A DNA stretch of 64,000 bases from Vicinamibacterales bacterium (GTDB taxonomy: Bacteria; Acidobacteriota; Vicinamibacteria; Vicinamibacterales; 2-12-FULL-66-21). Made by a program: the position numbers and the translations under genes. The stretch is taken from NCBI GenBank assembly GCA_035699745.1, contig DASSPH010000061.1:1-64000 (forward strand), given 5' to 3'. Shown here in pieces: positions 23,480 through 60,343 of the stretch (position 1 is its first letter; the number at the start of each line of letters is the position of its first letter). The notes beneath the pieces were generated by a model, which ran no database searches, had not been told where the DNA came from, and saw nothing but the letters and a program-made list of their open reading frames with translations.

Positions 23480-23749
23480 TCAGCGCCGCGGCCGGCGGCG
23501 TTCGACGCGCAGGGCGCGCGGCCCGCTGATGGGATCTTCGAGCAGCTCGAAGGTGAGCACTTCGCCGATCGCGAGATCGCTGAATCCCGTCCCCTCGCAC
23601 AAGTCGCTCCGGTGGAAGAAGACATGGCGGCGATCGGCCAGGCGGATGAAACCGTGCCCCTGCCCGAGCACCAGCGTCACGATTCGGCCCGACCGCGACG
23701 GCCCTCGCGGCGGCACATTCATCGGCGCGCCCGTCGGAGGTTGTCGCAC
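23480..23749 (-). CDS. cold-shock-domain protein
   Basis: 89 residues. A single OB-fold cold-shock domain begins at SGRIVTLVLGQGHGFIRL, where GHGFI stands for RNP1 (KGFGFI), and HVFFHRSDL stands for RNP2. Such proteins bind single-stranded RNA/DNA and act as RNA chaperones. The domain is preceded by about 20 Pro/Gly-rich residues. GTG 23749 follows the upstream stop by one base, indicating translational coupling; ATG 23722 is the alternative start. It is the last gene of the small operon with the omega-like gene at 24207. Confidence 0.78.
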   Translation of the reverse strand: MRQPPTGAPMNVPPRGPSRSGRIVTLVLGQGHGFIRLADRRHVFFHRSDLCEGTGFSDLAIGEVLTFELLEDPISGPRALRVERRRPRR

Positions 23750-23750
23750 C

Positions 23751-24002
23751 TCAACGGGTCCACGGACCGTACTCGCACCGATTCACGCCGGCAGGTTCAC
23801 CACTGTCCCGGTGGCGTCCTTCGATTTCGGCGCTGATGCGCACCCGGCGCTGCTGCACTTCGACGAAACGGGCGTACTCGACGACACTGCCCGTGATCTC
23901 CCCGCCAACGGCAGGCGATCGGTCGGGAGCGGATGCCGGCGTTCGGAAATCGGTGATCTGCAATGGCGTGCTCCAGTCCGTTTCAGACGCGTCCGCGGTC
24001 AA
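23751..24002 (-). CDS. 83-residue hypothetical protein in the cold-shock operon
   Basis: Not recognised. The middle (GEITGSVVEYARFVEVQQRRVRISAEIEG) looks like an alternating beta/helical folded segment. It starts at a TTG inside the omega-like gene (20-base overlap) and stops one base before the cold-shock gene, so the position argues for a real coupled gene. Function unknown. Confidence 0.45.
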   Translation of the reverse strand: MTADASETDWSTPLQITDFRTPASAPDRSPAVGGEITGSVVEYARFVEVQQRRVRISAEIEGRHRDSGEPAGVNRCEYGPWTR

Positions 24003-24207
24003 CCGCCTGGACGACCTTGCCCTGCGAGACTTCCAGCTGCGCGACGACGGTGTTCCGGTGAACGCCGCCGATCCTCGGCGAACACCCGCGCGTCAATTGA
24101 ATCGCCCTGAGCGAGGCAAGGATGACGAATTGAAACGCCCCGATTCCAGGCGGGCGGCGGATCACGGAACCGGCGGTGATAAGAGGTGAAGACGAGTCCA
24201 CAGCCAT
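23983..24207 (-). CDS. second RNA polymerase omega-like (RpoZ paralogue) protein
   Basis: 74 residues. From residue about 25 it reads FQFVILASLRAIQLTRGCSPR, and then VVAQLEVSQGKV. Aligned by eye with the window's own RpoZ (60185-60343) it keeps F-F-V, A, R-A, Q-L, R-G-C, P-R, G, A, E-V and G-K-V, i.e. close to half of 45 positions. Omega binds the beta' subunit and helps polymerase assembly. The about 24 residues before this core are extra. It heads a tight operon with a hypothetical protein and a cold-shock protein. The ATG lies 5 bases after a strong hairpin. It could be an alternative omega used under stress. Confidence 0.65.
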   Translation of the reverse strand: MAVDSSSPLITAGSVIRRPPGIGAFQFVILASLRAIQLTRGCSPRIGGVHRNTVVAQLEVSQGKVVQAVDRGRV

Positions 24208-24212
24208 TCGAA

Positions 24213-24239
24213 CCCTCACCAGGAAAGCTTTGGTGAGGG
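24213..24239 (-). promoter_or_regulatory. perfect hairpin directly upstream of the omega-like gene
   Basis: On the minus strand CCCTCACCA - 9-base loop - TGGTGAGGG ends five bases before ATG 24207. The 3' arm contains the only Shine-Dalgarno-like sequence (GTGAGGG), so the stem would hide the ribosome-binding site. A TATACT -10-like hexamer at 24289-24284 would give a leader of about 70 nt that includes this hairpin. Confidence 0.55.
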
Positions 24240-24452
24240 CTCGGGCCGGGTCGGCCGAAGAGCTCAGAAAAGCAGGTGGCGCAAGTATACACGGCGGGCC
24301 GCAGGCCGCCGATCATTTCTCGCCCTGATCCTGCCCCGCCGATGTGACGGCCCGGGCGCGCAACCGTGATACGCTGAAGCTCCTTTCCTGAAGTTCCTTC
24401 GCTGCGTTCGCAGGGGCGGCTGAGCATTTCCTCGAGAGAGAGGCATCACGTG

Positions 24453-24653: not shown

Positions 24654-24676
24654 ACCTTGCGGATGTGAGGACCTCC

Positions 24677-24886
24677 ATGAACACACCAACGCCCCGAACG
24701 GCGGTGAACCCGGCCGACCTCGCCCGCGACCTCGAGGAGCTGATCACTGCTCTCGATCGGCGGCTTCCAGGCGTTGCGCAGGCGGGAGAAGTGGACATCG
24801 CGCGCGACGCCGCTGCCCTGCGCGCCAAGGCCGTCGAGCGGCTCGAGCAGTTGAAGCAGACGACCCGCTCGGGCACGCCCGGTTAG
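24677..24886 (+). CDS. small hypothetical protein (69 aa)
   Basis: Predicted all-helical (LARDLEELITALDRRLPG, then ALRAKAVERLEQLKQ), possibly a short coiled coil. Not recognised. ATG 24677 has GAGG about seven bases upstream. Probably cotranscribed with the preceding small gene. Confidence 0.5.
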   Translation: MNTPTPRTAVNPADLARDLEELITALDRRLPGVAQAGEVDIARDAAALRAKAVERLEQLKQTTRSGTPG

Positions 24887-60184: not shown

Positions 60185-60343
60185 TCAGTCCTCGGCCGGC
60201 TGGACCTTCTCGACCTTTCCGAGCTTGACTTCCTTCATCGCGAGGCGCGCCTTCTTGTCGCTGCCCTCGACGCGCGGCGTGCACCCGCGCTGCAGCTGCT
60301 TCGCCCGCTCACCCGCCACCACGACGAACTCGAACTTGTTCAC
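60185..60343 (-). CDS. rpoZ: RNA polymerase omega subunit
   Basis: 52 residues, short as usual in this phylum: NKFEFVVVAGERAKQLQRGC, then TPRVEG and ARLAMKEV. Omega supports folding and assembly of beta'. GTG 60343 overlaps the gmk stop by 4 bases (GTGA); coaBC starts 5 bp downstream. Confidence 0.9.
   Translation of the reverse strand: MNKFEFVVVAGERAKQLQRGCTPRVEGSDKKARLAMKEVKLGKVEKVQPAED

Follow-up and report, generated by a model that had tools for sequence, protein, structure and literature searches.

Why would a bacterium that already encodes the omega subunit of RNA polymerase carry a second omega-like gene, and how might a hairpin over its ribosome-binding site control it? The question is raised by a minus-strand locus in the window, by which we mean the whole 64,000-nucleotide stretch of DNA analysed here, from a 6.3 Mb genome of the order Vicinamibacterales described as that of a soil-type Acidobacterium. 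The customary view of omega is of one subunit that does not change. The original prediction, made from the sequence alone, held that a second omega (hereafter omega-2) heads a cold-shock operon and may be switched by temperature or stress through a hairpin that hides its Shine-Dalgarno (SD) sequence. We compared the locus with its relatives, modelled its leader RNA and examined the genes that share this leader. The features of the window are collected in Table 1.

Table 1 Features of the omega-2 locus, and related genes, in the window.
Feature	Position	Strand	Basis or remark
Putative -10 box TATACT of the omega-2 promoter	24284-24289	-	10 nt upstream of the element
Leader RNA element, state A, 47 nt, conserved	24227-24273	-	Covariance models R1 and R2
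State-B competing hairpin	24209-24243	-	ViennaRNA minimum free energy (MFE) fold
Omega-2, 74 aa from ATG; conserved core from GTG 24165	23983-24207	-	Family, fold, tree
83-aa ORF, probably not a gene	23751-24002	-	TTG start, third-position GC, no homologue
Cold-shock-domain protein, ATG start (alternative GTG 23749)	23480-23722	-	Pfam CSD
Canonical omega gene (rpoZ), flanked by gmk and coaBC	60185-60343	-	Pfam Rpb6 38.7 bits, flanking ORFs
Divergent small ORF	24665-24886	+	Homology to an element-downstream protein

The omega-2 family and its neighbourhood

The likeness of omega-2 to the window's own RpoZ, put by eye in the original prediction at nearly half of 45 positions, amounts to 20 identities in 44 positions (45%), and tblastn aligns the two at 43% identity (E = 1e-6). 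Taken alone, omega-2 scores 16.7 bits against Pfam PF01192 (Rpb6; E = 0.0077), below the cut-off of 26, and we based its membership of the omega family on a family profile, a tree and a predicted fold. Across 60 relatives, tblastn revealed homologues up to 63% identical that are distinct from the gmk-linked omega. A profile built from 16 omega-2 members (A1) was run on 162 genomes of the order and gave about 49-50 loci with high scores, often in genomes that bear a canonical omega as well; run against the PDB, all 21 of its 21 matches were omega subunits (best E = 2.6e-7). The AF2 model of omega-2 reached a pLDDT of 85.4, and its top Foldseek matches were omega, RpoK and Rpb6, with probabilities of 0.9-1.0 for most and TMq of 0.6-0.7, the E-values for this short chain all lying above 0.09. 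In a tree of 67 rows, omega-2 formed a single clade (support 97/81) apart from the gmk-coaBC omegas; this tree rests on 67 columns, and branching within the omega-2 clade is unsafe.

Omega-2 thus shares with RpoZ (PF01192, TIGR00690) its fold, its core residues and about 45% identity to the host omega, but falls in a separate clade, is preceded by a new leader element and often sits beside a cold-shock-domain (CSD) gene. The canonical copy has the gmk-rpoZ-coaBC context and omega-2 lies outside this cluster, so that we file omega-2 as a paralogue rather than as an rpoZ orthologue. Comparative genomics bears out the claim of a second omega: judged by sequence and predicted fold, omega-2 is an alternative omega subunit belonging to an order-wide paralogue family, and would be expected to enter RNA polymerase. 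A literature search that covered few subscription journals returned nothing relevant on paired rpoZ genes or an alternative omega. Synechocystis without omega is heat-sensitive (PMC4227741), which offers a precedent for a stress role of the subunit.

A third omega-like ORF, of 84 aa, lies elsewhere in the same genome (G000:C44:9999-10166; L002 1453-1707, +), where it adjoins Hsp20-like ORFs. It scores 26.3 bits against Pfam Rpb6, just above the cut-off, and weak matches of this kind also occur in other genomes of the order.

In relatives, omega-2 starts at (GTG/ATG)-(I/V)-x-R-P, which here corresponds to GTG 24165, 42 nt after the ATG at 24207. This ATG has the better SD and would add a plausible 14-residue extension, which is not conserved in relatives. 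At three other loci (L034, L061 and L068) the leader precedes a small membrane-type ORF upstream of omega-2, and a similar upstream start may have fused to omega-2 in the window copy.

Only part of the predicted operon, in which omega-2, an 83-aa gene and a cold-shock gene were thought to follow one another with overlap or one-base spacing, withstood comparison: the CSD ORF is present, and the middle gene and the tight coupling fell away. The 83-aa ORF has a third-position GC of 0.57 in its non-overlapping part, as against 0.85 in the CSD ORF, matches nothing in Pfam or NCBIfam, and has no homologue at any of the relatives' loci examined. Without coding bias or homologue it was rejected as an operon gene; as it is probably no gene, the CSD gene lies about 260 nt downstream of omega-2 and is not tightly coupled to it. 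The CSD ORF itself scores 26.3 bits against Pfam PF00313, where the cut-off is 27, and contains the motifs GHGFI and HVFFH; its relatives, 45-62% identical, adjoin omega-2 in other genomes, and a closely related class shows good conservation. Of 49 omega-2 loci, 17 have a CSD gene no more than 1.2 kb away, on the same strand in 12. The number of CSD genes per genome ranged from 0 to 10 in those sampled from the order, and even at 10 per genome chance would account for far fewer than one such locus. The association of omega-2 with CSD genes is real, with a variable gene order. For the term 'cold-shock operon', support extends to genomic association and no further.

A leader element with two exclusive predicted folds

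When the sequences upstream of the genes were aligned, a conserved block came to light that immediately follows a TATACT/TATAAT box and has the core GCUUU-YC-UGAG ... CUCA-YC-AAAGC. At 65 of 94 copies of this element, a hexamer within one mismatch of TATA(A/C)T is present 6-23 nt upstream, compared with 2 of 92 control windows taken 200 nt upstream; the position of the element is promoter-proximal. In one fold of the element, state A, P1 (GCUUU/AAAGC) pairs 24269-24273 with 24227-24231 and P2 (UGAG/CUCA) pairs 24263-24266 with 24234-24237, with a 2x2 loop UC/CC between them and a P3 and a variable apical stem beyond. Across 94 copies, in an alignment that was fitted to the covariance model, 95.5% of cells pair, rising to 99.5% for those of P1 and P2. 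The covariation score of state A was reached in 0 of 500 shuffles and was lost when the partners were slid, the covariation in P2 and most of P1, which are near-invariant, coming from few pairs. P1 varies in step, as GCUUU/AAAGC or GCUGU/AYGGC, and the YC/YC loops are conserved; the length of the element ranges from 41 to 85 nt, with widely variable arm spacing.

The window element scores 63.9 bits with covariance model R1 (E = 1.3e-11 in its own genome) and 61.7 bits with R2. R1 found 113 copies in 65 of the 162 genomes of the order; across 396 genomes of the phylum its copies were restricted to the order, apart from one weak match in the same class, and this restriction serves as a specificity control for the model. 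Scanning 84,980 species genomes with a strict pattern returned 49 stretches, almost all titled Acidobacteriota, and several of the exceptions look mis-titled. Neither the window leader nor 13 other element loci matched Rfam 15 at E<=1, the sole Rfam 15 match in the window being a chance snoRNA elsewhere in the stretch (E = 1.6). The leader element is thus previously uncatalogued.

The element stands upstream of 30 of 49 omega-2 genes, the other 19 having no recognisable copy. Among omega-2 leaders, those of L045, L046, L048 and L059 are of a divergent type that R2 does not recognise. Model R2 likewise passes over L036, L037 and L055, which have another conserved leader (GAGCCAGC...GCCTGGGACTCCCG) and a B12-radical-SAM gene after omega-2. 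The host genome holds two copies, the second (C107:178324-178369, L151) being weak at 32 bits and preceding a small zinc-ribbon ORF (CPTCRS...YWRCGACGEVWN). Close-set copies on the same strand occur in L084 (1397, 1501) and L094 (1435, 1501), 66-104 nt apart from start to start.

The perfect 9-bp stem on which the original prediction was built (CCCTCACCA/TGGTGAGGG, ending five bases before the ATG, with the SD-like GAGGG inside) was confirmed, and ViennaRNA extends it to 13 bp including one G.U. In this second fold, state B, CGAGCCCUCACCA (24231-24243) pairs with UGGUGAGGGUUCG (24209-24221), and the SD GAGGG (24213-24217) lies within the helix. State B is the MFE fold of the window leader at all temperatures tested, from 4 to 50 C, and at -25.3 kcal/mol is the strongest of 93 copies. 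The mean state-B duplex reaches -12.25 kcal/mol, compared with -10.45 +/- 0.21 when partners are swapped and -8.55 +/- 0.23 kcal/mol when the downstream sequence is shuffled; for the whole 3' arm the excess is smaller (-13.54 against -12.12 swapped), and the element's 5' arm also pairs well with downstream sequence. Compensatory versions of the helix lie beside start codons in relatives (AGCCCUC/GAGGGCU, AGCUCUC/GAGAGCC, AGUCCUC/GAGGACA and GGUUCCUC/GAGGAACC). Given these compensatory changes, the RBS-hiding hairpin goes beyond chance.

States A and B share the 3' arm of the stem and are mutually exclusive, state B being clear in roughly 60% of copies and weak or absent in roughly 40%. For the element alone, the predicted probability of state A, P(A), averages 0.97-0.98; with 40 downstream nucleotides it averages 0.43 at 37 C and 0.53 at 10 C, the added sequence moving about half of the copies out of state A. 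In these folding models, such a shift is what one would expect if the leader were a translational switch acting during transcription. A few other copies, among them L085 (P(A) 0.96 to 0.05), respond to temperature in the cold-ON direction. A switch that simply melts is not predicted for the window copy, in which ViennaRNA keeps the SD fully paired from 4 to 50 C; melting alone thus does not explain regulation here, and on this prediction the window copy does not class as an RNA thermometer. Its state B is in fact so stable that equilibrium folding alone would hold omega-2 off.

In five copies (L125, L129, L131, L141 and L147) an alternative pairing, AAGCCC/GGGCUU, takes the place of CCCUC/GAGGG, and in some of these an AAAGG-like SD falls in the loop. 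The sign of the switch may be opposite in these copies.

Genes downstream of the element

Because sampling was seeded from omega-2, the following are counts of loci and not frequencies, and some of the genes stand second or third in line after the element: omega-2 at 31 loci, a small zinc-ribbon protein at 23, an NdvB-type protein at 16 (matching the cyclic beta-1,2-glucan synthase NdvB at 1.9e-67), CSD proteins at 7, and groESL, a BlaI-type repressor and B12-radical-SAM proteins at 3 each. Conserved ORFs for small membrane proteins also follow copies of the element, as do an RpoD-like, group-2-type sigma-70 factor at one locus (L149; element at 301-366, +) and a cNMP-binding-domain regulator at another (L152). 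These associations, read from sequence, outline a set of stress-type genes. The SD-hiding helix proposed as an omega switch stands, and an omega-specific thermometer does not, since the bistable leader, of which that helix is one half, precedes other genes too. The parts of the original prediction are sound once the middle ORF and a plain thermometer are set aside, and it understates the locus, whose leader is probably an uncatalogued RNA switch specific to the order and placed over a stress regulon with an alternative omega among its members.

In two genomes (L106, L119) the element lies ahead of groES-groEL, an unusual leader for groESL. It resembles the CIRCE/HrcA operator in being an inverted repeat upstream of these genes, but differs in sequence, in its variable spacing, in its RNA-type mismatched loops and in the many other genes that it precedes. 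In the window, the divergent ORF at 24665-24886 has 53% identity across 57 aa with a protein of L116, and its homologues lie downstream of the element in L073, L112, L116 and L121.

A proposed switch and its possible effectors

We consider it likely, from the comparative sequence evidence, that omega-2 is an alternative omega under an uncatalogued bistable translational leader shared by a stress regulon of the order. The nascent leader would first adopt state A, whose stem contains two pyrimidine-rich internal loops; this fold would lock CCCUCA and leave the SD free. Once the SD had been transcribed, CCCUCAC could instead bind it in state B, shutting translation off. The gene would be turned on by a signal that makes state A more stable or aids the opening of state B, making A the presumed ON state and B the presumed OFF state, with an effector choosing between them. 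The same element would govern a stress-type regulon in Vicinamibacterales, and omega-2 would join RNA polymerase under the inducing condition.

Within this explanation, three kinds of effector can be weighed. Tentatively, state A may be a metabolite or ion aptamer of an orphan riboswitch class, whose ligand at the YC/YC loops would keep the SD free; the loop nucleotides are strongly conserved, the element lies at the mRNA 5' end with a competing expression platform, and L084 and L094 carry their copies close-set. However, no metabolite is common to transcription factors, chaperones, a glucan synthase and membrane proteins, and such an aptamer would be small and simple. As in the SD-sequestering translational riboswitches (preQ1, SAM-II, THF-II), a structured 5' domain competes with an anti-SD/SD helix, but the element has no Rfam match, has another conserved sequence and stands before heterogeneous stress genes, and any ligand is a candidate only. 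We do not file the leader as a riboswitch; an aptamer-like domain in many 5' leaders, and an exclusive platform, are present.

We are equally reserved about a second effector, a protein that binds state A, perhaps the regulon's own cold-shock protein or a translational regulator that holds or melts the hairpins. Cold-shock genes are both members of the regulon and neighbours of omega-2, and the pyrimidine-rich conserved loops would suit a single-strand-binding protein; against this, the specificity of CSD proteins is usually loose, and the binding is putative.

A cold RNA thermosensor, in which low temperature favours or traps state A with its SD free and warmth favours state B, is unlikely. 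The cold-shock neighbours, the higher mean P(A) at 10 C than at 37 C, the response of L085 and the need for omega in the thermal acclimation of Synechocystis (PMC4227741) speak for it, but the window copy is predicted to stay in state B at every temperature between 4 and 50 C that was modelled, such loop conservation is unusual for a thermometer, and groESL and NdvB are atypical as cold genes. Like known RNA thermosensors (the cspA leader, ROSE, fourU), the element is linked to cold- and heat-shock genes and to an SD that is hidden or exposed; unlike them, it has conserved internal loops and no Rfam match, and its window copy is not predicted to open over that range.

That omega-2 might instead be a relic or an acquired copy that plays no part in RNA polymerase would fit the absence of a high-scoring omega-2 match from the 11 further genomes sampled in the host's family, yet this reading is very improbable given the confident predicted omega fold, the intact omega-2 genes in many genomes and the omega residues that are invariant across 16 members (F13, L19, R20, Q23, L24, G27, A42 and E45). 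Least credible of all is a DNA operator for a repressor, which the inverted arms adjoining the promoter might suggest but which we disfavour, the arms being no DNA palindromes (YC faces YC, not GR), their variable spacing (41-85 nt elements) leaving no fixed half-site distance, the copies lying downstream of the -10 box, and one arm pairing with the SD through compensatory changes.

If the favoured reading of an alternative omega under a bistable translational leader is true, placing a conserved second omega under a dedicated RNA switch would turn core-enzyme subunit exchange into a regulated event, and one that is directly testable. The leader itself would be an orphan regulatory RNA, known in about 100 copies, whose two states both covary and whose set of genes is defined, and past riboswitch ligands have been found from starting points like this one. 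It would also give a handle on stress responses in Vicinamibacterales, which are known largely from metagenome-assembled genomes. We see even chances that a new, order-specific class of RNA switch coordinates a general stress regulon translationally and alters RNA polymerase via both an alternative omega and a sigma factor. The analysis suggests that an RNA switch may let bacteria of this order reshape both their RNA polymerase and their response to stress.
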